Part shown: positions 6,286-63,942 of the stretch, one piece after another
Position numbering within the stretch: position 1 is the first letter of the stretch
Layout: each line of letters begins with the position of its first letter
Origin: a virus
Length of the DNA: 64,000 nt
IMG/VR virus record: IMGVR_UViG_3300008952_000004
Span: 124,001 to 188,000 of that record
Reading direction: 5' to 3' (one strand)
Made by a program: the position numbers and the translations under genes
The notes under the pieces: generated by a model
What the model was told of the DNA's origin: nothing
The model's input: only the letters and a program-made list of their open reading frames with translations
Databases searched by the model: none

Positions 6286-7188
6286 ATGTCTTTGCACAAG
6301 AGTTCAATTAGTGAAAAATCATTTCATCTGGCTGGGATTGTCCCGGTGGCTGGGCAGAAGTTAGACTTTAATTGTCCGTGGCATGATTCTTTAATGCCGA
6401 TTGCGCCAGACTATCTAGCCGTTGAAAGAGCGGTACTTGAGTGTGCTTGGGCAGGCTGTGAAACGATCTGGATCGTGTGTAACGACGACGTTCAACCTTT
6501 AATCAGGTATCGATTGGGCGATTATATATACGATCCTGTAAATCTACGCAGGCAATATAGAATTAAACCAGTGGATGAAAAGAAACCGATAACAATATAT
6601 TATGTTCCAGTACACCCTAATGATAGAGACAAACGAGACTGCTTGGGGTGGAGTGTTTTATATGGAGCAAAGACCTCTTTCGAGGTTTCAAAACAAATAA
6701 GCACTTGGGTTGCACCAGACCGCTATTATGTGGCGTTCCCGTATGGTGTATACAGTCCAGAAGTTCTACGTCCACATCGTTTGGAAATTTCCAGCCGCCG
6801 TGGTTTTTTCTTGAGTCACTTGGACGAGACTGTAAGAGAAGGCAAATATCTTGGCTTTACTTTCGATGCTAGTGATTTTTCTGAATTTGTAGGTGTGATC
6901 CGTACAGGTACGGGTGAAAAGATACCCGGTCAATCTATATCTGACGGAATCCCTAAAGAAAAATTGCCGTTACATAAAAGATGGTCAGCACGGTTTTTTT
7001 CACTTGACAAAATATTTCAATCTGCTAAAGTAGAGGGAGCATTAGTTCAAGAAGTTGACTGGTATTATAATATTGATAGTTGGGAAAATTATAGCAATTA
7101 TTTGTCGTGCGGCATTGATTTAAAAAAGCCAGCAAAGTGTATTTTGGCATATAGAGAGTGGAATTCGATGGGAGTTAATAATGAGTGA
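6286..7188 (+). CDS. Nucleotidyltransferase-like protein
   Basis: A 300-residue protein. The N-terminus (AGIVPVAGQ...LMPIAPDYLAVERAV...AGCETIWIVCNDD) resembles the start of sugar-1-phosphate nucleotidyltransferases: a loop, a helix that begins ERAVLECAWAGC, then a strand ending in IVCNDD. The diagnostic GGxGTRLxP loop is not present in standard form, so activity is uncertain. It overlaps dnaE by 8 bases. A sugar or cofactor nucleotide role is inferred from fold resemblance only. Confidence 0.5.
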   Translation: MSLHKSSISEKSFHLAGIVPVAGQKLDFNCPWHDSLMPIAPDYLAVERAVLECAWAGCETIWIVCNDDVQPLIRYRLGDYIYDPVNLRRQYRIKPVDEKKPITIYYVPVHPNDRDKRDCLGWSVLYGAKTSFEVSKQISTWVAPDRYYVAFPYGVYSPEVLRPHRLEISSRRGFFLSHLDETVREGKYLGFTFDASDFSEFVGVIRTGTGEKIPGQSISDGIPKEKLPLHKRWSARFFSLDKIFQSAKVEGALVQEVDWYYNIDSWENYSNYLSCGIDLKKPAKCILAYREWNSMGVNNE

Positions 7189-10100
7189 GCAAATACAATC
7201 TAGTATTCCTTTTGTGGGGCTACATGCCCACAGTGGATTATCGTTATTTGATGGTTTGGGGTATCCGCAGGATCATATGGATTTTGCATACAAGAACGGC
7301 TGTGACGCATTGGCTCTTACCGATCATGGGCACATGAATGGATTGTCATATCAAGTCCTTCATGCAAAAAAAATGAAAGCTGCCGGAAAAGATTTTAAGC
7401 CTATCTTTGGTGTCGAGGCATATTTTCTCCCGTCTGTCTCTAAGTGGAAAGCTGCATATGAAGAATCAAAAGAGGCAAAAAAGAAACAGAAGAAGGGCGG
7501 CTTGGTCATCGAGGACGAGAACGCAAGCAAGAGCGCTAAGAGTTTACTGAATAAAAGAAACCATCTTATTTTGTTGGCAATGAACCAAACAGGTTTGAAC
7601 AACATATTTAGGCTCATATCGGAGAGCTATGATGGGACAAATTTTTATAGGTATCCTCGCGTTGATTATGATATGCTTGCTGTTCATAGTGAGGGTGTTA
7701 TTGCCACGTCTGCTTGTCTTGGCGGTGTGTACGCTGGTAATTATTGGGATAATAAGAATGATGGTCCTGATGCTATTATGGATGCAATGAGGTTGACCAC
7801 CGAGAAGATGCAATCTATCTTTGGAGATCGGTGGTACGGAGAACTTCAGTGGAACAACATTCCAGAACAACACGAACTAAACAAATATATTATTCAAGTC
7901 GCAACCGAATACGGACTGGAACTAGTTTCTACAGCCGATAGCCATTATCCAACTCCTGATGCTTGGCGTGACCGAGAACTGTACAAGCGTCTAGGATGGC
8001 TGGGCAAGGGAGGCATGCCCGACTGGATGAGTTCAGAGCTTCCCGAAGGAATTGAGGAGATTGGCTACGAACTATATCCTAAGAACGGCGATGAAATGTG
8101 GGCAGCGTATAAAAAGTATTCATCCGGACTCAATCAACAATACGACGATGACTTGGTGATGGCTTCGATCACTCGCACACACAATATTGCACATAAGCGA
8201 ATTGAGTCTTTTATGCCGGATGATACTGTTCGGCTACCTGATTTCGTTGTACCAGAGGGTAAGACAGCAGAGCGTGCATTGAGAGAATCTTGTGTAGCTG
8301 GGCTCCGCGAGTACATCGATGCGAATGACCCTAAGTTGTCTGAATACATCGAGCGTATTAAGTATGAGTTGGATGTTATCGAGGATCGTGGCTTCACAAA
8401 ATATTTTTTGACAATGAAGACCATCGCGGATAAAGCCCTAGAGCGACAGCTTGTAGGTGTAGGCAGAGGCTCGGCTGCTGGCTCACTAGTGTCTTTTTTA
8501 ATTGGTATTACACAAGTTGATCCGCTTAAATATAATCTACTCTTTGAGCGCTTTATGCGTAAGGATCAGACTGATTATCCAGATATTGATTATGATGTCT
8601 CTGACCCGATGATACTTAAAGAGCGACTTATCGAGGAGTGGGGTGACGGAACAGTTGTACCAATTTCAAATTTTAATACTTTAAAGTTGCGGTCTTTGAT
8701 TAAAGATATTGCAAAGTTATATGAGGTACCATTTACAGAAGTTAACTATGTCACTTCGCGAATGATTAATGAAGCTACGCCCGAAGCCAAGAAAAAACAT
8801 GGCATCAAAGCCGGTGTTTATGTTCCAACGTTCGATGAGGTGGTGGAGTTTTCGCCCACACTTCAGAAATTCTTTGATAAGTACCCGGACATCAAGACAC
8901 ATATCGAGGCTTTGCACGGGCAGGTTCGCAGTGTCAGTCGCCACGCTGGTGGCGTTGTTGTCGGGGAAAATCTTGACAAATGGATGCCGTTGATTAACAG
9001 CGGAGGCATCCGACAAACCCCGTGGTCGGAGGGGCAGAACGTCCGACACTTGGAACCACTCGGGTTCATTAAGTTTGATATTCTTGGACTGGCTTCTCTG
9101 CGGATGATGGAAGGAGCTATTAAGCACATTCTCCGTCGCCACAAGGGCATCGCAGAACCAACTTTCGCACAGGTCAAAGAATATTATGACGAACATCTTC
9201 ACCCGGATAAGATTAATTTTGATGACCAAGTGATCTATGAAAATATTTTCCATAAGGGGAAATGGGCTGGAGTCTTTCAGTTTACAGAGAAAGGTGCACA
9301 GACATTTTGCCAGAAAGCCAAGCCGACAAGCATCATTGATATCTCAGCTATCACATCGATCTATCGTCCCGGTCCTCTGAGCGCCAACGTGCACGAGTTG
9401 TATGTGGAGGCAAAAACTAATCCAGACGAAGTTTCCTATGGGCACGACCTAATCAGGGAAGTAACTGAGGAGACTTATGGGTTCCTAATCTTCCAAGAGC
9501 AGATTGCACTACTAGCACACAAGCTGGGCAAGGATCTGACGCTGGACGAAGGGAACATGCTTCGTAAACTTCTAACTAAAAAGGGAACAGGTTCTACTGA
9601 TGCCAAGAAAATTAAAATCTACAACAAGTTCATCGAAGGTTGTACCGATAAAGGACTATCAAAAAGCTTCGCCGAAGGACTGTGGGAGAAATTCGAATAC
9701 TTCTCGGGGTATGGTTTTAATAAGTCCCACGCTGTTAGCTACAGTATTCTTAGTTATCAGTGTGCCTATCTTCTGCATCATTTCCCTTCAGAGTGGATGG
9801 CGGCGTTTCTGGACAAAGAGCCCGAAGCCAGAAAAGAAGCGGCAATCAATGTAGCCAAGTCACAAGGCTTTACAATTGCCCCGCTAGACATCAACACATC
9901 TGGAACTGTGTGGGAGATTTCAGATGATGGTAATACTCTAATTCAACCGCTGACATCCGTCAAGGGTCTGGGTGACGCAGCTATTGAACAGATTATTAAT
10001 CATCGTCCGTTTGGAGCTATCGAAGAACTATTATTTAATGAAGAAATTGTTTACTCTAAATTAAATAAAAAAGCTCTTGATGTGCTTGCAAGAGCGCAGG

Positions 10101-10606
10101 CATTAAACGATCTGGTTGACAAAAGATTTACCGGACTTAAACATTTTTGGTCCGCAGCGGTTGTTGATCGTCCTAAAACCCGGAAGAAGTTACACGAAAA
10201 CATTGAACTGTATGAACCCGAAGGTGACTTTACTGATGAAGAGAAGATTGAATACTTGGTCAACCTAACCGGTGTCTTTCCCTTTGCGTTGGTGATGGAC
10301 GATTACATTGAGGAACAGTTGGCTGACCACTGTGTCCCGCCGCTAGGAGACTGGGATCAGGACCTCGGCGTGGCGTGGTTCATTCCGCGTGAGGTGATTG
10401 AAAAGAAAACCCGGAAGGGTCGTACATATTGGCTAGTAAAGGTTGTCGACTCAACCAGTAAAAATACTACTATTAAATGCTGGGCGGTCGACCCAAAGAA
10501 GGATGTTGTCCACCTTAATCGACCATACATGGCACGATTGGACTATAGCGATGACTGGGGATTTAGTACACGTTCAGTAAGATATAATTTTAAACTTTTA
10601 GGATAG
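7181..10606 (+). CDS. dnaE: DNA polymerase III alpha subunit (DnaE type)
   Basis: An 1141-residue replicative polymerase. It begins with a PHP domain (LHAHSGLSLFDG, His15/His17; LTDHGH near 47-52). The polymerase core carries GRGSAAGS and the catalytic PDIDYD near 466-471. The fingers and C-terminal part include GVFQF, SIYRPGP and SYSILSYQCAYL, typical of DnaE. An OB-like segment follows near the end. It overlaps the preceding gene by 8 bases (ATGAGTGAG). With the helicase it forms the replication core. No clamp loader or clamp is visible in this window. Confidence 0.95.
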   Translation: MSEQIQSSIPFVGLHAHSGLSLFDGLGYPQDHMDFAYKNGCDALALTDHGHMNGLSYQVLHAKKMKAAGKDFKPIFGVEAYFLPSVSKWKAAYEESKEAKKKQKKGGLVIEDENASKSAKSLLNKRNHLILLAMNQTGLNNIFRLISESYDGTNFYRYPRVDYDMLAVHSEGVIATSACLGGVYAGNYWDNKNDGPDAIMDAMRLTTEKMQSIFGDRWYGELQWNNIPEQHELNKYIIQVATEYGLELVSTADSHYPTPDAWRDRELYKRLGWLGKGGMPDWMSSELPEGIEEIGYELYPKNGDEMWAAYKKYSSGLNQQYDDDLVMASITRTHNIAHKRIESFMPDDTVRLPDFVVPEGKTAERALRESCVAGLREYIDANDPKLSEYIERIKYELDVIEDRGFTKYFLTMKTIADKALERQLVGVGRGSAAGSLVSFLIGITQVDPLKYNLLFERFMRKDQTDYPDIDYDVSDPMILKERLIEEWGDGTVVPISNFNTLKLRSLIKDIAKLYEVPFTEVNYVTSRMINEATPEAKKKHGIKAGVYVPTFDEVVEFSPTLQKFFDKYPDIKTHIEALHGQVRSVSRHAGGVVVGENLDKWMPLINSGGIRQTPWSEGQNVRHLEPLGFIKFDILGLASLRMMEGAIKHILRRHKGIAEPTFAQVKEYYDEHLHPDKINFDDQVIYENIFHKGKWAGVFQFTEKGAQTFCQKAKPTSIIDISAITSIYRPGPLSANVHELYVEAKTNPDEVSYGHDLIREVTEETYGFLIFQEQIALLAHKLGKDLTLDEGNMLRKLLTKKGTGSTDAKKIKIYNKFIEGCTDKGLSKSFAEGLWEKFEYFSGYGFNKSHAVSYSILSYQCAYLLHHFPSEWMAAFLDKEPEARKEAAINVAKSQGFTIAPLDINTSGTVWEISDDGNTLIQPLTSVKGLGDAAIEQIINHRPFGAIEELLFNEEIVYSKLNKKALDVLARAQALNDLVDKRFTGLKHFWSAAVVDRPKTRKKLHENIELYEPEGDFTDEEKIEYLVNLTGVFPFALVMDDYIEEQLADHCVPPLGDWDQDLGVAWFIPREVIEKKTRKGRTYWLVKVVDSTSKNTTIKCWAVDPKKDVVHLNRPYMARLDYSDDWGFSTRSVRYNFKLLG

Positions 10607-18292: not shown

Positions 18293-19879
18293 TTGAGTAA
18301 GGTTTATAGTTCGAATAAAGTTCTTCAAGAGAAGATTTTAAAAGGTATTAATAAGTTGGCAGACAACGTTGCCAGCACCCTTGGTCCCAAGGGAAGAAAC
18401 GTTATCCTTCATCAGAAGGGCAAGCGACCAATCATCACAAAGGATGGTGTGACTGTAGCGGAGTTTGTGGATTTGAAGGATCCGGTTGAAAATGCTACTG
18501 CACAAATTTTAAAGCAAGCCTCGGCACAAACAAACTCGGTTGCGGGCGATGGCACCACAACAGCTACAGTTTTGGCACGTGCAATATATACTGAAGCTTA
18601 TAAATATTTGTCTTCTGATACCAGCCCAGTTGAATTAAAGAGGGGAATCGACAAAGCAGTTGAAGAGTTAGTTTTGAAACTAAAAGAAATTTCCATTCCA
18701 ATCTCTAGTGTCGAGGATATTGAAAATATTGCTCGAATTTCTGCCAATGGAGATACAGCTATTGGAAAAATGATTGCCACGGCAGTTGATCAAGTTGGTA
18801 AAAATGGCGCAATCACTGTAGAGGAGGCTCGCTCCCTAGATTCTAGCTTGGAGGTTGAAGAGGGTTTTCGATTCGACGGTGGCTTCTTTTCAACTCAGTT
18901 TATGACTGACGAGCGACGTGGTGTGGGTTCTTATAACGATGCACTAGTACTTGTCACTGATCAAAAACTGTCAACGGTTGATGAGCTAATGCCGGCACTA
19001 GAGCTAACTGCTCGCGAGTCGCGCCCTTTGATTATTGTTGCAGAAGAGGTTGAAGGGCAAGCATTGGCGGCATTAATCATGAATGCAGTGCGTGGCACTT
19101 TAAAAGTGATGGCTGTTAAAGCTCCAAGATACGGCGAAGAGCGAAGAAACATTTTAAAAGATTTGGCTCTGTCAATTGGTGCTTCGTTCGTGAGCAGAGA
19201 ATCTGGAAAAAAGCTTCGTGATGCACAATTAAATGATTTAGGTCAGGTGAAAACTGTGGAGGCTTCAAAATATAATACAACTTTTGTTGGCGGTAGCGGC
19301 GAAAGAGCCAAGATAGAAGAAAAAATTGAGTTGCTAAAAGAAGAAATTAAACAAACAGAAAATATTCATGAATGTGAACGTCTTCAAGAGCGTGTCACAA
19401 GGTTGGCAAGCGGAGTAGCCGTGATTAGAGTTGGCGCTGCAACAGAGGTGGAGATGATTGAGAAAAAGCACAGGGTCGAGGATGCTCTAGAGGCTGTACG
19501 AGCCGCCCGAATGGATGGTATTGTACCGGGTGGCGGCTGCGCGCTACTAGCAGCGCGAGAGTTGGCGCAGATCACAATTGAACACCCAGAACAAGCCCAC
19601 GGAGCCCAAGCAGTGCTTGAGGCGGTGTCTGCTCCTATATGTCAAATGGCAGAAAATGCAGGTTTGTCACCAGATTTGACATTGGCTAGGGTTATGGAAA
19701 TACAAAAAAAGAACTCCTCAGCCACGATTGGCTTCAACTTTCGTACTGGAAAGATGGAAAGCCTTCAGGAATCTGGAATCATTGATCCTGTGCTCGTGAC
19801 CATATCTGCGCTTCAAAACGCTGCTTCGGTTGCTTCAACTCTTTTAACCACAAATTATGCAATCATAGAAGAGGAATGA
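18293..19879 (+). CDS. groEL: GroEL chaperonin (Hsp60)
   Basis: A 528-residue group I chaperonin close to full length (E. coli GroEL has 548). It shows ASTLGPKGRNV, the ATP-binding GDGTTTATVLARAI, GAITVEEA, DALEAVRAA and GIVPGGG. The Gly-Gly-Met tail of bacterial GroEL is missing. It starts with TTG after AAAGAGG. With the GroES-like protein at 4364 it may fold phage proteins. Phage GroEL homologues are known but uncommon. Confidence 0.95.
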   Translation: MSKVYSSNKVLQEKILKGINKLADNVASTLGPKGRNVILHQKGKRPIITKDGVTVAEFVDLKDPVENATAQILKQASAQTNSVAGDGTTTATVLARAIYTEAYKYLSSDTSPVELKRGIDKAVEELVLKLKEISIPISSVEDIENIARISANGDTAIGKMIATAVDQVGKNGAITVEEARSLDSSLEVEEGFRFDGGFFSTQFMTDERRGVGSYNDALVLVTDQKLSTVDELMPALELTARESRPLIIVAEEVEGQALAALIMNAVRGTLKVMAVKAPRYGEERRNILKDLALSIGASFVSRESGKKLRDAQLNDLGQVKTVEASKYNTTFVGGSGERAKIEEKIELLKEEIKQTENIHECERLQERVTRLASGVAVIRVGAATEVEMIEKKHRVEDALEAVRAARMDGIVPGGGCALLAARELAQITIEHPEQAHGAQAVLEAVSAPICQMAENAGLSPDLTLARVMEIQKKNSSATIGFNFRTGKMESLQESGIIDPVLVTISALQNAASVASTLLTTNYAIIEEE

Positions 19880-24241: not shown

Positions 24242-24694
24242 ATGACAAATGCAGCACTTACAACCTATTTCAATAGACGACCGAGCCTTGTTGGCGAGAA
24301 TGTCTTTAATGAGTTTTTTAACGGAATGTTTCAAGACATTCCAACTTTGGTCAAGCAGACCACACAGGGATACCCCGTCACTGATATCTATGAGGACGAG
24401 ACTGGTAACACAGTCTTAGAATTCGCCTTAGCTGGCTTTCAAAAGGAGAATGTGCATGTCACAGTAAATCCAGAGAAAAATAGAATTGACGTCAGTTCTG
24501 ATAGTCATGGTGATGAGGACAGTTCAGCGCTGAAAACTCGTAGGATTGCTCGGAGAGCTTTTCATAAGACGTTTGTAAATTATAATAATAATTTGGATTT
24601 AGCAAAGGTATCTGCGTCGTTCGAGAATGGGTTGTTGCGCGTTACAGTGCCGGTACGCCCGGAAGCTGAACCGTTAGTTGTTAAAATTAAATAA
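24242..24694 (+). CDS. Small heat-shock protein (Hsp20/alpha-crystallin)
   Basis: A 150-residue holdase-type chaperone. The alpha-crystallin domain is seen as YPVTDIYEDETGNTVLEFALAGFQKENVHV...ASFENGLLRVTVP, with the conserved A-x-x-x-N-G-(L)-L motif. It has its own promoter and terminator, so it is a single-gene unit. Phage Hsp20 proteins are common in marine T4-like phages. Confidence 0.92.
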   Translation: MTNAALTTYFNRRPSLVGENVFNEFFNGMFQDIPTLVKQTTQGYPVTDIYEDETGNTVLEFALAGFQKENVHVTVNPEKNRIDVSSDSHGDEDSSALKTRRIARRAFHKTFVNYNNNLDLAKVSASFENGLLRVTVPVRPEAEPLVVKIK

Positions 24695-24746: not shown

Positions 24747-24804
24747 TTGTGTTTTTACCTTTCGAAAGAACTAATTATTAAAGTTAGTAACAGGAGCCCA
24801 CGTG

Positions 24805-25065
24805 ATGATAATAACAAAACAAGTCTTAAAAGAGATGATAGTCGAAGAGATACAAAAAAGTCTTCTAAGCGAAGAGATAGCCGAAGAGGCAGATCCCGCT
24901 CAGGCATATGTTGATTGGATCGTTGCGATTCAAGAAGCTGCTACTGAAGCTTTAAAAGAAGTTGAGAGCGGCACCGAACCTTATGAAGCTGCATTTAGCT
25001 CTCGACTAAACCAATTGGCGTTCGGCTTAACTGGTGAAGATTTTTACCACCACTACTTTAGCTAG
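24805..25065 (+). CDS. Small protein with packaging-type leader (MIITK)
   Basis: An 86-residue acidic protein. The leader MIITKQVLKEMIVEE matches the MKITKSQLKKIILEE pattern seen at 62-64 kb. The rest is helical with no known domain. ATG 24805 is preferred over GTG 24802 because it matches the leader family. Confidence 0.7.
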   Translation: MIITKQVLKEMIVEEIQKSLLSEEIAEEADPAQAYVDWIVAIQEAATEALKEVESGTEPYEAAFSSRLNQLAFGLTGEDFYHHYFS

Positions 25066-25076
25066 GAGAATAAATA

Positions 25077-26009
25077 ATGGGAAAGAAAAGACTTACAGAA
25101 ATTGCAGTTAGGGAGTGGGCTCAGTATTTGCGCGAGGCAGAATCTGCCACTGCTGCTGCCAGTGAGGCAGAAGTCACTGCGACTACTGATTTATCTGATT
25201 TGCATAAAAAAGCAAAAGATGCTCACAAAAATCGGGGTAAGGCTCTACAGGACCTAGCCTCTGCTGCTGAAGTTGAGAAAAAGGTTGCAACTGACGCCCA
25301 GGCAATTGAGGGCGATCGCGCTAATGCCTATAAAGCTGCCATTACGGCAAGGGACACCTCCAGTGATTTGCGTGATCAAAACAGCAAAGCAAACAAGAAA
25401 AAAGAAGATATTTTAAAAAGGTCAGCCGATGCACAAGAAAAGAAGGCGAAGGCTGATGAACTTAGCGCCAAAGCCGCAGAAGCAATTGCAAAATCGGCTG
25501 AAGAAGTGGCTGATCTTGAAAACACAATGGCGAAAATTAACTCTCAATTTGAAAAAGCAAATCAAGAATTAAATAAAGCATCTGAAATGTTTGCAGATCT
25601 GGATAATCAAGCCGCAGACATATCAAAGCAGAAAGCCGCTGCTGCTGAGCAGCGCAAATCTGCTCAAGAGCAAGCAGCGACCGCTGCTGAGGAAGCAAGC
25701 AAGTTGAGCGATGAGTTCCAAAAGGCACATCAAGCATCTGCTGACGCTGCCGAAGATACAGCAACAGCTATAGAGGATGATGAAGAAGCCGAAGAAGCGG
25801 AAGAAGAAGCCGAAGAAGAGGAAGAAGAAGAGGAAGAAGAAGAGAAAGAAGATGAGGAGCAAGAGAGGGAAGAAAAAGAAGCAGATCGGCAAGCGGCAGA
25901 CGAAGAAGCTGCGGAAGAAGCCGAGGAAGAAGCTGCGGAAGAAGCCGAGGAAGAAGCTGAGGAGCCTGATCTAAAGGATATTAAGGAGATATTTAAGAGA
26001 TATCTATAG
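25077..26009 (+). CDS. Ala/Glu-rich coiled-coil protein with packaging-type leader
   Basis: A 310-residue protein. The leader (RLTEIAVREWAQYLREAES) is an amphipathic helix ending in LRE/A. A long coiled coil, rich in Ala, Lys and Glu, runs to about residue 235, then about 60 almost purely acidic residues (runs of EEEE), ending in LKDIKEIFKRYL. Charge and coil content fit an internal head or core protein. Short DNA repeats of GAAGAAGCC type underlie the acidic tract. Confidence 0.65.
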   Translation: MGKKRLTEIAVREWAQYLREAESATAAASEAEVTATTDLSDLHKKAKDAHKNRGKALQDLASAAEVEKKVATDAQAIEGDRANAYKAAITARDTSSDLRDQNSKANKKKEDILKRSADAQEKKAKADELSAKAAEAIAKSAEEVADLENTMAKINSQFEKANQELNKASEMFADLDNQAADISKQKAAAAEQRKSAQEQAATAAEEASKLSDEFQKAHQASADAAEDTATAIEDDEEAEEAEEEAEEEEEEEEEEEKEDEEQEREEKEADRQAADEEAAEEAEEEAAEEAEEEAEEPDLKDIKEIFKRYL

Positions 26010-26340: not shown

Positions 26341-26460
26341 ATGTCTAAATATGACGATTTGATGCATAGTTATACTGTTGCCAAAGCGGCTGAAAATATT
26401 GATTGGTCCTCTGAATCTGGCACCACCAAGTTAATCGCTTGCACTTATCACGCGGGGTAG
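26341..26460 (+). CDS. 39-residue hypothetical protein
   Basis: A short frame from ATG 26341 with a good CAAGGAG upstream, reading MSKYDDLMHSYTVAKAAENI and ending at TAG. It is supported by its RBS and its fit between neighbouring genes. Confidence 0.55.
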   Translation: MSKYDDLMHSYTVAKAAENIDWSSESGTTKLIACTYHAG

Positions 26461-26464
26461 AAAA

Positions 26465-26641
26465 ATGAAATTGCCTGACATGAAACAAGTTTTAATCGCC
26501 TGCGTGGGTATCAATGTTGCCCTCCTTGCCGGAGGTTTAGCCTTGGAGGACTACCAACTCGTAACACTGGCAGTGCTTTCAGGAGCTTCTTGCTTGCTGG
26601 GCATCCGTGTTAGAAGGCAGATCGACGAGGAGCAGGAATGA
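26465..26641 (+). CDS. Small two-segment membrane protein
   Basis: A 58-residue protein with two hydrophobic stretches (VLIACVGINVALLAGGLAL and LVTLAVLSGASCLLGI) and a charged tail. Its stop overlaps the next ATG (ATGA), so it is coupled to the leader-bearing gene cluster. Confidence 0.65.
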   Translation: MKLPDMKQVLIACVGINVALLAGGLALEDYQLVTLAVLSGASCLLGIRVRRQIDEEQE

Positions 26642-27243
26642 AACTTATAATGGAAAGCTTCAGGAAGTTTATTAACGAGGCTCCAATGGAGTTGTCTAAA
26701 ACGACAGGTCTTTATGTGGAAGATTCTTTTATCGCTGTTTATGATTATTATGCGATGAGGGCATCAATTAAAAGATCTTTGGGCAGCGAAGAGCACATGG
26801 AGAAAGTAGGTAAAGCGATTCTCGGTGCTATGCGCTTGGGCTTTCGCTCTGGAAATATGGTTGTTGAAGAAGTATGGGCACAGAAAGGCTACGGACCACT
26901 CCTGTACAGGCTTGCTCTTGAACAGTCTTCGCAGCACGGGTTAGCCCCATCCAGAGTCAAAGGCGAGGTTTCCGATGCTGCGTCAAGCGTGTGGAAGGAA
27001 TTCTATGACGGCAAGGGTGCCGAGTACGCAAAACACAAACCGGCAGAAGAACAAATCCACGGGATAGAGTGGCTGGATGCTGTTTATTATCCCACCAGTA
27101 CAGTTCAAGGTAAGGACACATCCGTTGCTTTGAATAAAAAAGTTTTTAACAGAACCTCTGATCCTTACGAGGAGTTGGAAACGAATTTTCTTGAGATTGC
27201 CCACTCAAAGTTGCGAGACGAAATGTCAAAGGTGGGGTACTGA
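26638..27243 (+). CDS. GNAT-like protein with MKLIME leader
   Basis: A 201-residue protein and the first of seven consecutive genes with the shared N-terminal motif; here MKLIMESFRKFINE/A. The body contains MVVEEVWAQKGYGPLLYRLALE, which matches the acetyl-CoA loop region (Q/RxxGxG/A) of GNAT acetyltransferases. Substrate unknown. The leader resembles T4 capsid-targeting sequences, so packaging in the head is inferred. Confidence 0.7.
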   Translation: MKLIMESFRKFINEAPMELSKTTGLYVEDSFIAVYDYYAMRASIKRSLGSEEHMEKVGKAILGAMRLGFRSGNMVVEEVWAQKGYGPLLYRLALEQSSQHGLAPSRVKGEVSDAASSVWKEFYDGKGAEYAKHKPAEEQIHGIEWLDAVYYPTSTVQGKDTSVALNKKVFNRTSDPYEELETNFLEIAHSKLRDEMSKVGY

Positions 27244-28307
27244 TGAAGCTAATAATGGAAAACTGGCGCAGGCACTTGAATGAGATTACCTCTGTTCCGC
27301 AGGAGCATATGCAAGCTTTTAAGGATGCTATAGCCGATTCCAAATTTTGGACGCTCCCACACACTGAAGATGAAATAGACATAGGACCAGCAGAAGAGCT
27401 TACCACCCCCGCTGTTGAGGCTTTGGCTAATTCTTTAAACGATGTTGCCGAAGCCTTGGGAACAGAAATATATTTTCTTTTTACCACGATAAGCGAAGAG
27501 GAATATGCGTTGGGACCGGATAGTCCATATCCCGGCTACCCAAACAACTGGCTGATGCAGGGTGCATATCAGGGACCACAAAAGGGAAAGCATGTGGTTT
27601 GGTTTCAATTTCGACCGCTAGCTGAAGACTTCGAGATGGCTAAGCTTAATTCCGAGGCTCTGGTTAAGGTGTTATCTCAAACTTTAAATCATGAGCTTGT
27701 GCACTATTATCAGCTTAAAAAGCAAGCTGCAAACAAAGGGATCAGCGACGAAGAAGCATGGGCTGAGCTTGAAAAGGATCCAAAGCAATTGCCACAAGAC
27801 GGCGAGGAGCAGACTTACCTTGGCTTGCACAACGAGATAGATGCATATGCCCATGAAGCAGCAGAGCAACTGTTGGACAAACACTCGCCAGAAGAGGCGC
27901 TGGATATAATCCGAAAGCTGTCGGCAGATAACTTAGAAAAATATCCAGAAATATCTTCGGTTGTTAAAAGATATGTGGAAGTCTTCAAGAGTGATCCAAA
28001 AACACTGGACAAATTCCGAAAGAAGCTGGTTAAACAGATTGAAAGCCAGTCGGGTATGCAGGAAATATTTAATAATTGGCGAGGGTATTTAAAAGAAATG
28101 ATTGATTTGGACATTGAAGTAGGGGATGTGATCCTCGGTGGGAAATATAAAAATAAAAGAATGATCGTCAAGGACATCGGCGAAGATGAGTTGGGGCAGC
28201 CAACCGTAAATGGGAAACCAATTTTAAAATTCAGGATTGAGAAATTTTTGCCCGACGAAAAAAAGAGCAAGAAGACACTTGATGCGGAGAAGGAGAAAGA
28301 CGAATGA
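27243..28307 (+). CDS. Zinc metallopeptidase fused to a second leader and SH3-like domain
   Basis: A 354-residue protein. After MKLIMENWRRHLNE/I the first part contains HELVHYYQ (HExxH zinc site, near residue 150) and a downstream EIDAYAHEAA glutamate likely completing a gluzincin-type site. Near residue 275 a second leader-like stretch appears (MQEIFNNWRGYLKE), followed by an SH3-like domain almost identical in plan to the C-terminus of the gene at 28612 (IEVGDVILGGKYKNKR). This looks like a fusion of two neighbouring family members. Confidence 0.75.
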   Translation: MKLIMENWRRHLNEITSVPQEHMQAFKDAIADSKFWTLPHTEDEIDIGPAEELTTPAVEALANSLNDVAEALGTEIYFLFTTISEEEYALGPDSPYPGYPNNWLMQGAYQGPQKGKHVVWFQFRPLAEDFEMAKLNSEALVKVLSQTLNHELVHYYQLKKQAANKGISDEEAWAELEKDPKQLPQDGEEQTYLGLHNEIDAYAHEAAEQLLDKHSPEEALDIIRKLSADNLEKYPEISSVVKRYVEVFKSDPKTLDKFRKKLVKQIESQSGMQEIFNNWRGYLKEMIDLDIEVGDVILGGKYKNKRMIVKDIGEDELGQPTVNGKPILKFRIEKFLPDEKKSKKTLDAEKEKDE

Positions 28308-28594
28308 AATTTCTAATGGAAAGATGGAAAAGGTTTGTGAACGAGAACGAAGTCTACGACCAGAAGAGCTACGACTTGGGCTTGTCCAACGAAGACGGCA
28401 CCAGAACTCAATCCGGCAAGCTTCTAGGGAATATCGCAAAGAGAGGACGAGAAGGTTATACCCCATCTGCGGGGCAAAAAACGATTCTTTCCATTCTCAG
28501 TGATGAAGGCTTGATCAGTTATGGACTTCACCCTATGGGCGGCTCAAGAGCAGTCATCACTGATAAAGGACTAGACGCATTGTCTGGTATATAG
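28304..28594 (+). CDS. Small protein with MKFLME leader
   Basis: A 96-residue protein starting MKFLMERWKRFVNE/N. The rest (TPSAGQKTILSILSDEGLISYGLHPMG...VITDKGLDAL) looks like a winged-helix-type unit. It overlaps the preceding gene by ATGA. Confidence 0.65.
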   Translation: MKFLMERWKRFVNENEVYDQKSYDLGLSNEDGTRTQSGKLLGNIAKRGREGYTPSAGQKTILSILSDEGLISYGLHPMGGSRAVITDKGLDALSGI

Positions 28595-28611
28595 AAGAAG
28601 GAAAAAGAAGA

Positions 28612-29064
28612 ATGAAACTTATAATGGAAAACTTTAGGAAATTTATTAAAGAGGCACAATGGGGAGGCTTTACTGGAGGCGCCGCGCCATTAGATGAACC
28701 AGCACCAGACAGCGGAGTTGTCCCTCCCGAACAGCTAAGAAAGATGTGGGAGATCTATATTGAAATGGGTATGAGCCCCGAAGAGATTTTACAAACCCCA
28801 GAGTTTGTTGAAGCTGGGATTACCGATCCCGAGCAATTGCAAGAAGCAATCACTCTTGATATTGAAGTCGGAGATATTGTTCTCGGCGGCAAGTATAAAA
28901 ATAAAAGAATCGAGGTCAAAGAGATTGGCACAGATGATATTGGTCAGCCGACCATCAATGGCAAATCGCTTTTAAAATTTAGAATTGAGAAACAACTACC
29001 AGACAGCAAAAAGAGCAAAAAAACGCTTGATGCGGAAAAAAAGGAAGAGGGGTCAAAAGAATGA
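28612..29064 (+). CDS. SH3-like domain protein with MKLIME leader
   Basis: A 150-residue protein. Leader MKLIMENFRKFIKE/A, a Pro-rich linker, a short helix, then an SH3-like domain (IEVGDIVLGGKYKNKRIEVK...LLKFRIEKQLPDSKKSKKTL). The same domain ends the metallopeptidase at 27243, showing duplication within the cluster. Confidence 0.7.
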   Translation: MKLIMENFRKFIKEAQWGGFTGGAAPLDEPAPDSGVVPPEQLRKMWEIYIEMGMSPEEILQTPEFVEAGITDPEQLQEAITLDIEVGDIVLGGKYKNKRIEVKEIGTDDIGQPTINGKSLLKFRIEKQLPDSKKSKKTLDAEKKEEGSKE

Positions 29065-29642
29065 AGAAAATACTAACAGAGTGGCGTAAATATGCCATGA
29101 AAGAAGCTTACTATGGGGGCGTACCGGGCGAACCAGAAACGCCAGCAGGGTATGGAGGTGCGCTTGACGCAGCGAAGGCTCAGCAACACTTGAGCGATGA
29201 GATCGATGACCTAGTTCGTTTGGGCAAGATAGATATTAATGACTTGTCCGTTGAAACCCTCAGAGCAAATCAAGAAATCCCGTGGGATAAATTTCAAGCC
29301 ATTGACGATGAAGTTTTAGGAGATATCATTCGAGACTATCAGAGGAAAAAGAAATTTTATAGAGAGAGTTTGCAAGAAGAACCGCGTGGAGTCTCAGACT
29401 TACTTAAGTCGGCAGAGATGATCCGGTGGCACCTTGGAGCGCTTACAAATGATGCGGGGGACTTGGCTATGCTCACGCAACAACATCAAGAAACCATTGA
29501 TGAGCTTTTAGCAGGGCAGAATTTTGAAGAAGCTGTCAAAGCCCTTGAACCCTATATTGAAAAGCTGGGACCATTGGCTCAGGACATCGCGACTGCCCAT
29601 AAAGATCTTCAGCTTTTGAAAGACTCACTCAAGGACGGCTAG
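29061..29642 (+). CDS. Hypothetical protein with MKKILT leader
   Basis: A 193-residue helical protein. The leader is MKKILTEWRKYAMKE/A, a variant of the cluster motif. No domain recognised in the body. It overlaps the previous gene by ATGA. Confidence 0.65.
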   Translation: MKKILTEWRKYAMKEAYYGGVPGEPETPAGYGGALDAAKAQQHLSDEIDDLVRLGKIDINDLSVETLRANQEIPWDKFQAIDDEVLGDIIRDYQRKKKFYRESLQEEPRGVSDLLKSAEMIRWHLGALTNDAGDLAMLTQQHQETIDELLAGQNFEEAVKALEPYIEKLGPLAQDIATAHKDLQLLKDSLKDG

Positions 29643-29645
29643 CCC

Positions 29646-30305
29646 ATGAAAGATATAATGGAACAATGGAGAGAGTACTCCAGCGGAGACGCGACACAAA
29701 CCCAATTAGATGAAGGGTTGATCGACGACGCCATGTCATGGGTCAAAGAGAAGGGCGCCGCAGCTAAAGAGGCGACCATAGATTTCTTTCAGAAGCTCAA
29801 GGTTGAGCTTGGTGAAACTAAGGAAGGCGCGCTTTTATTGGCTAAAATGGTGCGAGGCGAACAGCTAACGCCAGAAGAAGAACAAGCACTCACAACACAG
29901 GCTCAGGACATCGGCAAGGGTCTTCCACTGTTGGCAATATTTGTCTTGCCGGGAGGTGGCATAGCTGCTGCAGCGTTGGTGAAGTTAGCAAAGAAGTTTG
30001 GCGTCGACTTGATGCCCACAGCATTTGCTGATGAGACGAATGAAAGCCCTATAAAAGAACGAGCAGTCAACGTGGGACCTATCTGGCGAAAATTTAAACC
30101 AGAGTTGCAAGCTGCCATGGCTGAGTTCATGACGTCATACCTCGCAAACCAGAATGAGGTGGAAGGCTTAGAAGATCTCAATCAAGAGCGTCTGGTCACG
30201 GCTATGACAACGGCTGCTACGTCTGAAGTGTCCAAGGTGTGTCTGGTCGTGAAAGCAACGCCAACCAAACACGGGATTCTGAACGCTGGGAAACAAAATA
30301 AGTGA
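29646..30305 (+). CDS. LETM1-like protein with MKDIME leader
   Basis: A 219-residue protein. The leader is MKDIMEQWREYSS. Residues about 70-125 (QLTPEEEQALTTQAQDIGKG, then LLAIFVLPGGGIAAAALVKLAKKF and LMPTAF) follow the LETM1 ribosome-binding domain pattern: LPGG in a hydrophobic segment, then LLPSxF. LETM1 itself is a mitochondrial inner-membrane protein; what the domain does in phages is not known. Confidence 0.65.
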   Translation: MKDIMEQWREYSSGDATQTQLDEGLIDDAMSWVKEKGAAAKEATIDFFQKLKVELGETKEGALLLAKMVRGEQLTPEEEQALTTQAQDIGKGLPLLAIFVLPGGGIAAAALVKLAKKFGVDLMPTAFADETNESPIKERAVNVGPIWRKFKPELQAAMAEFMTSYLANQNEVEGLEDLNQERLVTAMTTAATSEVSKVCLVVKATPTKHGILNAGKQNK

Positions 30306-30868
30306 AATTAATAATGGAAAGTTGGCGAGGCTTCTTGAACGAGGGATCCAAAGAAACCATTGTAGCATTTTTCGGTTCCTCTGGCTCTGGTAAGAGTCAC
30401 GCTAAGAAATACTTTGTAGATCAAGGCTGGCGCGAGATTAGAACCAACTCCACCCGCCCGCCAAGAGGGGCGGAGGATAAAGAATATAATTTCTGGTCCG
30501 AAGAAGAGTTCAAAGAACTCATGGACGCTGGCAAGCTCGTTAATACGAATGAATATCAAGGAAACTGGTATGGTACTCACGTTGATGATCTTAACGAGCC
30601 GGGTTCAGCCGTGATGCTTACAGACACAACCAGCTTGGACAAGCTCAAGCAGGTAGCCGGGGATCGCCTTACCCTTGTGTACACCGCCCCACCTTCAGAC
30701 GCAGAGATGGAAAAGAGACACAAGGATCGTGGCACACCAGAACGACTGGCAGTTGCAGCCGCTGAGAAGGAACGGGATACTGCCGAACTCGCGGATCGCG
30801 GCGACGTACTGACCGTCAACAACCAACAAGAAATTGAAGATTTAGAGCAGCAATTGCGGGCTTTTTAG
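30302..30868 (+). CDS. Guanylate kinase-like protein with MKLIME leader
   Basis: A 188-residue protein. The leader MKLIMESWRGFLNE/G is followed by a P-loop GSSGSGKS near 26-33 and the guanylate kinase GMP-binding region TNSTRPPRGAEDKEYNFWS...FKELMDAGKLVNTNEYQGNWYG. It would convert GMP to GDP, or act on another substrate. It uses GTG overlapping the upstream stop. Placing a kinase behind a packaging-type leader is unusual. Confidence 0.82.
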   Translation: MKLIMESWRGFLNEGSKETIVAFFGSSGSGKSHAKKYFVDQGWREIRTNSTRPPRGAEDKEYNFWSEEEFKELMDAGKLVNTNEYQGNWYGTHVDDLNEPGSAVMLTDTTSLDKLKQVAGDRLTLVYTAPPSDAEMEKRHKDRGTPERLAVAAAEKERDTAELADRGDVLTVNNQQEIEDLEQQLRAF

Positions 30869-40338: not shown

Positions 40339-41730
40339 ATGAGTGATGATACTCCAAAGTCTACTTTGTGCTGTTCTTTTTGCGGAAAGAGCAGGAAACA
40401 GGTTATGACGCTTATTGCAGGTACCCGCGTTTATATTTGTGATGAATGTATTGACCTCTGTGCTGAGGTTGTGGAAGACGAGCGCGAGCGAAAAGATACG
40501 ACTCATCAAAAGGAAGATTGGATACTTCCGACCCCTAAAGAAATATTTGACCAACTTGAAGAGTATGTTATTGGTCAAACTGAGGCTAAAAGATTATTAT
40601 CTGTAGCCGTCTATAATCATTATAAGCGCGCTGCAATCAACCACAAAGTGAAAGCTGCCGAACGAAAGAACAAAAAACGTCATAGAAAAAAGAAGGTTGA
40701 CCCAAACCATATTGATCTAGAGAAGTCCAATATCCTTCTGCTGGGACCAACAGGTTCTGGTAAGACATTACTAGCAAAAACGCTAGCGAAGATCTTGAAT
40801 GTTCCGTTTGCAATTGCTGATGCGACGTCCTTGACCGAAGCGGGATATGTGGGCGAAGATGTTGAGAGTATTTTACATTATTTGGTTCAAAACGCAAACG
40901 ATGATGTGTCTCGTGCAGAGCGCGGCATTGTCTACATCGATGAAATTGACAAGATAACTAGAAAGGGCGAAAATACCTCAACAACGCGAGATGTTTCAGG
41001 CGAAGGTGTACAGCAGGCTCTTCTTAAAATTATAGAGGGTACTGTTGCTAGCGTATCTCCGAAGGGCGGACGAAAGCATCCAAATGCAGAATCTATCAAA
41101 GTTGATACGAATAATATTTTATTTATTTGCGGCGGTGCCTTTGGCGGAATTGAGGATCACGTTGCTGAGCGTTTTAAAGCAAAAGGTGGGCAGGCACTTG
41201 GCTTCCTCAAGGGAGAAGCTGAAGATGGACAGGAACAGATCAACATCAAAGATATTGATAAGGACAGAGTGTATGAATTGGTCGAGCCATCTGATTTGGT
41301 TTCCTATGGTCTAATATCAGAGTTCATTGGGAGAATCCCTGTTTTAGCTCCGCTTGAAACACTCAGCGAAGAAGCGTTCTTAAAAATCTTAACCGAACCA
41401 CGTGGCGCCATCACGAAACAGTATCAAAAACTCTTCGAAATCGATGGTATAGAGTTGTCTTTTACAAAGGATGCACTTGCCGCCGTTGCAAAAGAGGCTA
41501 TAAAGAGGGAAACTGGTGCGCGTGGACTGCGGGCAATATTTGAATCAGCCATGGCAGATGTTATGTTTGATGCCCCAACAGATAAAGAAAATATTGAGAA
41601 AATAACCATTACAAAGGAGGTGATCACAGATAAGGCAGAGCCCGATATAATTTGTGTATCACCAGACCAGAACGATATGGGCGATATTGAATCAGACCCA
41701 GACGTCATCGTAGAAATTAAAAAAAGTTAA
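40339..41730 (+). CDS. clpX: ClpX unfoldase (AAA+ ATPase)
   Basis: A 463-residue protein very like bacterial ClpX. An N-terminal zinc domain (Cys12, Cys15, Cys34, Cys37), Walker A GPTGSGKT (about 135-142), YIDEIDKI, and the GAFGGIEDH...sensor and [10 protein letters not shown] follow. A basic insert ([14 protein letters not shown]) sits before the ATPase core. It should feed proteins to ClpP; two ClpP-like genes are in the window. It lies 78 bases after 40260, with no clear promoter. Confidence 0.96.
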
Positions 41731-62325: not shown

Positions 62326-62637
62326 ATGTCAACAATCACAAAGACTCAACTTAAACAAATTATTAAAGAAGAATACGAAGCAGTAACACGCGATAAATCC
62401 GTGACCGAAGGTAACAATACAAGCCGAATGATTACGAAGCTTGAACTCATTCTAAACACAGTAGAAGGGGCTATGGGTTATATTGAAAACCCTGCCGCCG
62501 AACAACGCTTCCAAAGGGCTTTGGATCTCGGACAAGAACTTTGGGAAGAGATGCATAATCTACTCGAAACGAAATCAACCGCGACAGAGCCTGACGTCAA
62601 TCACAAAGAAACAAATCATGGAGGAAACTTAAAATGA
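62326..62637 (+). CDS. Protein with MKITK-type leader
   Basis: A 103-residue protein: MSTITKTQLKQIIKEEYEAV then a helical body. First of four consecutive genes with this leader. It overlaps the next by ATGA. Packaging in the head is inferred from the leader. Confidence 0.72.
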   Translation: MSTITKTQLKQIIKEEYEAVTRDKSVTEGNNTSRMITKLELILNTVEGAMGYIENPAAEQRFQRALDLGQELWEEMHNLLETKSTATEPDVNHKETNHGGNLK

Positions 62638-62939
62638 AAATCACAAGAGAACAACTTTTAAAAATTATTCAAGAAGAACTAGCCCACTCTGACATCGGCG
62701 CTGCGCGATCACCCGAAGAAGTATTTGCGTCTGCTGACGAAAGCCTCAATCAAGCACACAAGGATTTGCAGATGTTATCTATGCACCTTAAAAATGGAGG
62801 GTTTGATACGCAGCCAGTAGAAAAGATACTTAAGGACGTGGAGAACGATATCATCAATTTAAATGGTCTTGTGAAGGAAGATGTAGAAAAGCTTGGTTCT
62901 CTTAAGGGACCACTTGAGAGAGGGACAAGAGACAAATGA
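62634..62939 (+). CDS. Protein with MKITK-type leader
   Basis: A 101-residue helical protein: MKITREQLLKIIQEELAHSD. Body rich in helices (LNQAHKDLQMLSMHLKNG). Overlaps the next gene by ATGA. Confidence 0.72.
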   Translation: MKITREQLLKIIQEELAHSDIGAARSPEEVFASADESLNQAHKDLQMLSMHLKNGGFDTQPVEKILKDVENDIINLNGLVKEDVEKLGSLKGPLERGTRDK

Positions 62940-63433
62940 AAATCACAAAGTCACAATTGAAAAAAATTATTTTAGAAGAATATGCCGCTGTCCACGAACT
63001 TGGACCGGCAACAGGACACGAACCGCGCACCGCTCCACTTAAAGCACTACAAGAGATTATCGCAGCGCTCGCAGAGGTGGCTGGCATTATGAAAGATTCC
63101 CCTTCACATCGCCCTGCTGACGAATTCGCTGGTTATTTGAAAAGCATCAGTGAGGAGCTTCAAGCAATCTTTGACGAGTTTTATGGTATTGCCAAACGCA
63201 CCGGGCATTTGGATTTGCCTGAGGGACAAGGACCGAACACCACTAAGACAGATTTTCCAGCAGGTGCTTCTTCAGAATATCCAAAAATGCTGGACAGTTT
63301 ATATGATGAGATGCAGAGCTACGAAGCTCGTTATGGAAAGGCACTTCCTAATCCTAAACTGTTGGAAGCTGTTTTGGATACTATTATAAGCCTAGAAGCA
63401 CATTTAAAAAGATTAGAGGAGTCACTTTATTAA
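62936..63433 (+). CDS. Protein with MKITK-type leader
   Basis: A 165-residue protein: MKITKSQLKKIILEEYAAV then helices (LKALQEIIAALAEVAGIM). Ends in TAATG with the next gene. Confidence 0.74.
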   Translation: MKITKSQLKKIILEEYAAVHELGPATGHEPRTAPLKALQEIIAALAEVAGIMKDSPSHRPADEFAGYLKSISEELQAIFDEFYGIAKRTGHLDLPEGQGPNTTKTDFPAGASSEYPKMLDSLYDEMQSYEARYGKALPNPKLLEAVLDTIISLEAHLKRLEESLY

Positions 63434-63942
63434 TGAAAATCACCAAGTCACAATTGGAAAAAATTATTTTAGAAGAAATCGCTGCTGTTGAAAAAGAAGC
63501 CCTCACCGACCGCGATCTTGCCGGGGGAGACGAGTATGAAGGATTAGATAAAGCAAAATACATGCTTGGGCTATTGCTAGCAAAGATGTCCTCTGACCCA
63601 AATACAACAAGATACGCTGATCAGTTGGATAAAATTTTAGTGATGATGCAAGGCGCGGGCGTGAGTGAGGGACGCCTCCCGTTCGGTGATATACACCACG
63701 AATATAAACTTATTAGAGAATTTGTTTTAAAGCTTCTCACAAAATACGGAGAAACTTATGTGATAGAATCTCTTCGAACGGTATTAGAAGAACTAGAAGA
63801 TGGGATTCTTGCAAATGATTTAAATGAAAGGCAGACCGTTGAAGAATCTGACGAGAATTGGCCAACCAAGAGACATCCAGACTTTGAACAATCTAAGATG
63901 AAGAAGCTATGGATCTTCAAAAGACTTGGGAAAGTGAAATAA
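63433..63942 (+). CDS. Protein with MKITK-type leader
   Basis: A 169-residue protein: MKITKSQLEKIILEEIAAV, nearly identical at the start to the preceding gene, then a distinct helical body and a basic C-terminus (KMKKLWIFKRLGKVK). Confidence 0.74.
   Translation: MKITKSQLEKIILEEIAAVEKEALTDRDLAGGDEYEGLDKAKYMLGLLLAKMSSDPNTTRYADQLDKILVMMQGAGVSEGRLPFGDIHHEYKLIREFVLKLLTKYGETYVIESLRTVLEELEDGILANDLNERQTVEESDENWPTKRHPDFEQSKMKKLWIFKRLGKVK

Follow-up and report, generated by a model that had tools for sequence, protein, structure and literature searches.

Why do seven adjacent phage genes that encode unrelated proteins begin with almost the same fourteen residues? The question is raised by an uncultured virus genome, IMG/VR record IMGVR_UViG_3300008952_000004 (189,713 bp; genome G000), of which positions 124001-188000 were analyzed; this stretch of 64,000 nucleotides is called the window, and coordinates refer to it unless stated otherwise. 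The seven genes are consecutive on the plus strand, overlap or lie a few bases apart, and all start with variants of MKLIMExWRxFLNE; they are referred to here by their start positions (Table 1). An earlier note on this DNA had read the shared start as a leader for packaging into the phage head. Our analysis leads to the same answer: the leader of about 14 residues is very probably the capsid targeting sequence of a T4-type head, its cargo being freed by a gp21-type protease and probably injected into the host. This reading is supported by a protease gene in the same genome, by more than 100 leader genes in related phages, by the link of the leader to T4-type head genes and by the occurrence of leader genes at the position of prohead-core genes.

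The leader and its bodies in the window

To avoid circularity, a position-specific profile was built from 104 leaders of other phages only, with no window sequences, and scored on all 4,661 start codons of the genome (189,713 bp) that open a frame of 45 codons or more. The eight highest-scoring starts were 27243 (44.8 bits), 30302 (41.9), 28612 (33.9), 26638 (31.0), 28304 (21.7), 29646 (20.6), an internal leader copy at 28056 (11.0) and 29061 (3.6). The next-best start scored -5.9 bits, 9.5 bits below 29061. Among 93,220 shuffled starts, one reached 8.6 bits and the second-best 2.5 bits. This ranking indicates that the leader set is complete in the genome, that its members are adjacent and that at least seven of the eight are not due to chance; on score alone, 29061 is marginal. 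All seven genes singled out by the earlier note are among the top eight. The eighth copy, which lies within 27243, was absent from its list. Five of the eight leaders (those of 26638, 27243, 28612 and 30302 and the internal copy) end in a strict L/I-x-E.

The labels that had been given to the bodies fared unevenly. Guanylate kinase, for 30302, is the only label with profile support (PF00625, 1.7e-13; phrog_1815, 3e-24; P-loop GSSGSGKS). The body of 26638 may be GNAT-like: it matched no Pfam family, and the best Foldseek matches of its medium-confidence model are GNATs, but with E values of at least 0.03. The HExxH motif claimed for 27243 is there (HELVH at residue 150), while the assignment to a peptidase finds no family match, and the structure model of this protein is unusable (mean predicted local distance difference test score, pLDDT, 44.6). 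The winged-helix label of 28304 (best E 0.083, under the cut-off) and the LETM1 label of 29646 (LETM1_RBD, 15.9 bits vs the cut-off of 25.3; E 0.01) were not borne out. In the model of 26638, the leader is predicted to form a separate low-confidence helix (residues 2-12) and not to be a part of a folded domain. A GNAT-like body in another phage (L230:2941-4074) is fused to a C-terminal part that resembles ADP-ribosyltransferases by eye and has no Pfam match. A scan for T4-type late-promoter motifs near the cluster gave a single CTAAATA at 26345 and no claimable pattern.

Table 1. Features of the window and of its genome (window coordinates unless marked; ↓, predicted cut)
Feature	Position	Strand	Remarks
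GNAT-like gene	26638..27243	+	leader MKLIMESFRKFINE↓A, then 187-residue body; family recurs with the same leader in other phages
Putative zinc peptidase gene	27243..28307	+	leader MKLIMENWRRHLNE↓I, HELVH body, internal leader copy, SH3-like C-terminal module
Internal leader copy	28056..28097	+	MQEIFNNWRGYLKE↓, residues 272-285 of the 27243 product; predicted second cut site
SH3-like module	28098..28304	+	MIDLDIEVGDVILGGKYKNKR...; 73% identity to the C-terminal part of 28612; a different module at this place in the relative L228
Gene 28304	28304..28594	+	leader MKFLMERWKRFVNE↓N, 82-residue body without assigned family
Gene 28612	28612..29064	+	leader MKLIMENFRKFIKE↓A, linker, QLQE↓A, SH3-like module
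Gene 29061	29061..29642	+	divergent leader MKKILTEWRKYAMKE↓A, body without assigned family
Gene 29646	29646..30305	+	leader MKDIMEQWREY without a site at the usual place; candidate displaced QLDE↓G, residue 23
Guanylate kinase gene	30302..30868	+	GTG start; leader MKLIMESWRGFLNE↓G; domain with intact P-loop
Second leader MKITKxQLxxIIxEE	62326..63942	+	four consecutive genes: 62326, 62634, 62936, 63433
Further second-leader starts	genome 188075 and 86610		188075 is the fifth, after the four of the window
Small protein with second leader	24802..25065	+	MIITKQVLKEMIVEE; 14.1 bits
Long acidic coiled coil	25077..26009	+	possible further substrate; starts ...AVREWAQYLRE↓AE; similar protein upstream of the L228 cluster
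Open reading frames with (K/N)(V/I)GD(L/M)(V/I), examples	33375, 37507, 37944, 39432, 39640, 42175, 42362, 43645, 50464, 50723, 51073, 60277, 62061

The leader in other uncultured phages

A DNA pattern that fixes residues 1-9 (MKx[IL]MExW[RS]) was searched in IMG/VR, and the figures below are those among the matches listed. The leader was found on at least 120 stretches and at least 136 genes, at least 129 of which code for 50 amino acids or more, whereas the same pattern reversed, used as a chance control, gave 19 matches. In 84,980 bacterial genomes there were two matches, one due to chance and one a real GNAT-type leader gene in the chromosome of a WOR-3 bin (L473, CP070664; MKLIMENWRGYLAE↓A), possibly phage DNA assembled or binned in. 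No published report of the leader was found in the open-access literature.

The alignment consensus is MKLIMENWRxxLxE, with no conservation beyond it. Residue 14 is glutamate in 71 of 104 non-redundant leader proteins and residue 12 is mostly L, I or V, neither position being fixed by the pattern; a hydrophobic-x-E is present at residues 13-15 in 79 of the 104. Among the 25 proteins without this canonical site, 22 have an (I/L)-x-E somewhere in residues 11-45, where shuffling predicts 12.3, and an additional (I/L)-x-E in residues 16-45 is seen in just 18 of the 79 canonical ones. The displaced sites suggest that the targeting segment is separable from the cut site and that the site is retained even when it is moved. 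At one N-terminus (L230:660-1253), two leader-like segments stand in tandem (MKLLIEQWRQYLIE↓G...SEEWRKHLNE↓M), followed by a weak ParB-like body. Together with those of the window, 112 leader proteins fall into 68 unrelated body clusters (BLASTP, E 1e-3). The bodies recognized in other phages are GNAT, zeta/AAA kinases, an M23 peptidase and HD and, weakly, HAD/NT5C.

Similar gene starts could also arise by recent duplication or belong to a DNA element that enhances recombination or translation, the peptide itself having no role. Tandem duplication can indeed yield adjacent similar starts, and the DNA spanning one gene start is 92.8% identical in L228, a relative whose cluster is syntenic. However, synonymous sites of the leader are near saturation (proportion of synonymous differences, pS, 0.84), and the proportion of non-synonymous differences (pN) is 0.51 in codons 10-14 (pS 0.83) versus 0.72 in codons 17-50 (pS about 0.73); in codons 2-9, where pN is low, the search pattern itself is part of the cause. 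Near-saturated pS together with the lower pN of codons 10-14 indicates that selection acts on the peptide and that the copies did not arise by recent DNA duplication. The copy within 27243, moreover, is not at a gene start. A duplication artefact was rejected given the saturated synonymous sites, and we see hardly any room for this explanation as a whole.

Comparison with relatives revealed exchange of modules at the predicted cut sites. The L228 peptidase is 79% identical to the 27243 product in the best segment (E 1e-154) and keeps the internal leader, but its C-terminus differs: FLTE↓GGGRTLYYIGKG... replaces the SH3-like module. In 27243 this module starts YLKE↓MIDLDIEVGD, and it occurs as a stand-alone gene in L229 (MKLIMENWRRFLQE↓AITLDIEVGD). 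Three arrangements are thus seen, behind FLQE↓, YLKE↓ or QLQE↓, the last in 28612. The guanylate kinases of the window and L228 do not differ at any residue from 51 onwards, but the leader region of the L228 protein carries an insertion of 46 residues, with TLNE↓D and GFLAE↓A sites. L230 encodes a GNAT-like body of 40% identity behind a different start, which ends SCISE↓AA. Exchange at (I/L)-x-E is what release of the bodies by cutting there would predict, and with its internal leader 27243 would yield two mature proteins from a single gene, the peptidase and the SH3-like module.

When the 27243 product was compared with named phages by TBLASTN, only the SH3 module was found, in two huge metagenomic phages and in Pelagibacter phage HTVC008M. 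Its neighbours there have short N-termini with (I/L)-x-E, not the leader. In HTVC008M (L226, 104-112 kb), genes for the SH3 module, a P-loop kinase and a HAD-type protein are consecutive, and their N-termini are short and non-homologous, ending in (I/L)-x-E or V-x-E (FILKE↓G, LVQE↓Q, NLSE↓A); this is possibly a third style of leader.

Head genes, protease and competing readings

The genome encodes the gp21 protease (Peptidase_S77, PF03420, 4.1e-36; phrog_207, 1.6e-55), gp23 (PF07068, 6.1e-71), gp20 (PF07230, 4.1e-80) and the terminase, so that the protease needed by the proposal of the earlier note is present. The major capsid protein gp23 has a conserved site of the KELLRE↓A or KELLRE↓S type near residue 60 in 19 phages, with close variants in a few, and an N-terminal site of the D(L/F)LTE↓A type occurs in gp21 of the relatives examined; KELLRE↓A and DFLTE↓A are presumably cut positions of the two proteins. 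Among leader records of at least 84 kb, gp23 was found in 18 of 23. S77 was found in 17 of these 23, compared with two of 11 size-matched controls (Fisher p 0.003), a contrast weakened by the small number of controls and by the fact that the two S77-positive ones are apparently copies of one phage. The six S77-negative leader records are all 125 kb or shorter, and two of them resemble fragments of sampled phages: G005 shares leader genes with G001, and the leader matches of G004 lie at the coordinates of those in G016.

Gene position gives a further link. For 41 of the 129 leader genes of at least 50 amino acids, the stretch includes a head gene as well, and all 41 are on the strand of the head genes; 37 of the 129 either follow gp20 and precede gp21 (or gp21 is outside the stretch), or are found shortly before or immediately behind gp21. 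The gp20-gp21 gap is about 3.3 kb. In T4, genes 67 and 68 are located between genes 20 and 21. The T4 prohead core includes gp21, gp22, gp67, gp68 and the internal proteins (PMC9026906). This position could also mean that the leader loads the prohead core but that the proteins are scaffold, core or assembly factors, degraded or retained in the head, and not injected effectors. Many leader genes do lie at the T4 core-gene position between gp20 and gp21, some leader proteins are as short as 67-69 amino acids (L067, L101, L112), similar in length to T4 core proteins of the gp67/gp68 type, and the largest body cluster (20 members) holds many of the gp20-gp21 genes. On the other hand, the head genes are distant from the window cluster, which includes an enzyme domain and a HELVH body; GNAT, zeta/AAA kinase, HD, M23 and HAD-type bodies are not scaffold-like, and the diversity exceeds what a core function would lead one to expect. 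We consider assembly factors an unlikely account of the leader proteins as a whole. As the window cluster is about 58 kb from gp21 and outside the head module of G000, the leader proteins fall into two sets, one of the core block and one of dispersed cargo.

Some of the S77 linkage must reflect shared ancestry, since the carriers are relatives; gene position and module exchange are independent of that. A leader that docks elsewhere, for example on the host polymerase, the membrane or a replication compartment, would owe its association with head genes entirely to the ancestry of one clade. The well-sampled carriers are indeed all related and have T4-type heads, which would allow leader and head to have been inherited together. 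This would leave unexplained the placement in the gp20-gp21 gap, the (I/L)-x-E that is kept or moved, the swap points at that site, and a second, unrelated leader (described below) that also occurs in S77-bearing phages (17 of the 22 contigs listed). Docking outside the head is in our view very improbable.

The closest known parallel to head packaging is T4 itself. The first ten residues of T4 IPIII suffice for packaging, gp21 cuts after L/I-x-E, and residues 4 and 7 of this leader matter for targeting and residues 8 and 10 for processing, which is blocked when D replaces the E (PMC9026906). Ip1-3 share the leader only, and each blocks a different GmrSD restriction enzyme once injected (PMC12373910). 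As in T4 IpI-III and Alt, a short N-terminal leader that starts with MK and ends in (I/L)-x-E precedes unrelated bodies of neighbouring genes in a phage with a gp21 S77 protease. T4 IpII and IpIII start MKTYQEFIAE↓A, whereas IpI starts MKTFKEF and has its ITE↓A displaced downstream, like the non-canonical leaders described here. Unlike in T4, the leader has 14 residues with a W-R core and not the 10 of MKTYQEFIAE, to which it is unrelated in sequence; it stands before far more bodies, including enzyme domains; and it is also found on genes of the gp20-gp21 block, as an internal copy and beside a second leader type in the same genome. Comparison with MKTYQEFIAE gave no homology, the two being alike only in MK, one aromatic residue and the (I/L)-x-E end; for this reason we suggest that the leader works like the T4 capsid targeting sequence and do not claim common descent. 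That it is a new, sequence-unrelated variant of that element with a much broader cargo is strongly supported by the sequence evidence. T4 has three small Ip proteins and Alt, whereas the 112 proteins sampled here comprise 68 unrelated bodies, from enzymes to unknown folds.

Other systems are less similar. The giant phages phiKZ and SPN3US reportedly also process head proteins, their ejection proteins, with a prohead protease of their own and deliver them to the host cell (PMC5694885, PMC10052503), but the head genes here are T4-type (PF03420, PF07068, PF07230). The polyvalent proteins of phages and conjugative elements are likewise injected conflict proteins with peptidase, ADP-ribosyltransferase and ParB-like domains (PMC5512222); there, many domains are joined in one long chain, whereas here they are encoded by separate genes, or are separable by an internal cut site, and share the leader.

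The leader, the site, the protease, the head-gene linkage and the module exchange can be read from the sequences, and they are consistent with the following course of events. New proteins would be bound to the scaffolding core of the prohead by their MKLIMExWRxF segment, the shell would then be built around core and cargo, and the phage's own gp21-type protease would cut after (I/L)-x-E, freeing the mature bodies in the head; we hold docking, cutting and packaging with high confidence. The mature bodies would remain with the packaged DNA, most likely enter the host with it and act early as effectors or counter-defence proteins. For injection and action in the host, the least certain step, our confidence is moderate. 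In evolution, different bodies would have been placed repeatedly behind the same leader.

Several observations weigh against packaging and injection. At P3 there is valine in 28304 and methionine in 29061, which departs from the strict T4 (I/L)-x-E; in 29646 the leader end reads SSGD, without (I/L/V)-x-E, and the displaced site of Table 1 is the first candidate. In other phages the P1' residue is frequently E, Q or D, and small residues do not predominate there. Named phages did not yield the leader, a consensus double-leader peptide giving only chance matches among them (Rheinheimera phages, E 3-4), and we found neither virion proteomics nor N-terminal data on leader phages. The distance of the window cluster from gp21 is a further point, and so is a guanylate kinase in the virion without an obvious role; early nucleotide supply or another nucleotide-directed role is our guess.

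If head packaging and injection are true, a 14-residue tag identifies virion-bound, probably host-entering proteins of uncultured phages from raw sequence and leads directly to new proteins of counter-defence and takeover, making up a searchable catalogue of virion-delivered effectors. It would also suggest a loading tag for phage engineering beyond T4, as well as, through the internal copy, delivery of two cargo proteins by one gene.

A second leader type and neighbouring genes

The genome has at least six starts like MKITKSQLKKIIxEE, on unrelated small proteins (Table 1). The corresponding pattern was found on at least 119 stretches of IMG/VR. Among the matches listed, the bodies of 151 non-redundant proteins fall into 134 clusters, and position 22 is most often E (73 of 151); the 22 records of at least 73 kb are those of which 17 carry S77. 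MKITKxQLxxIIxEE probably serves as another leader of this type, and it is very widespread among S77-bearing uncultured phages. We lean towards the broader view that at least two general packaging tags of unrelated sequence (MKLIMENWRxFLxE and MKITKSQLKQIIKEE...LxE) serve hundreds of different proteins in uncultured phages whose heads are of the T4 type, including polyprotein cargo with modules exchanged at the protease site.

Alanine- and glutamate-rich coiled-coil proteins adjoin leader clusters in the window (25077-26009), in L228 (27-833) and in L229 (3520-5277), and the version in L229 starts with the leader MKLLFENWRKYLTE. About 15 short open reading frames (55-113 amino acids) between 33375 and 62282 have (K/N)(V/I)GD(L/M)(V/I) near the start and are probably SH3/KOW-like paralogues. 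By eye, the window also contains genes for a DNA polymerase III alpha-like protein (7181-10606), a GroEL-like protein (18293-19879), a small heat-shock protein (24242-24694) and a ClpX-like protein (40339-41730).

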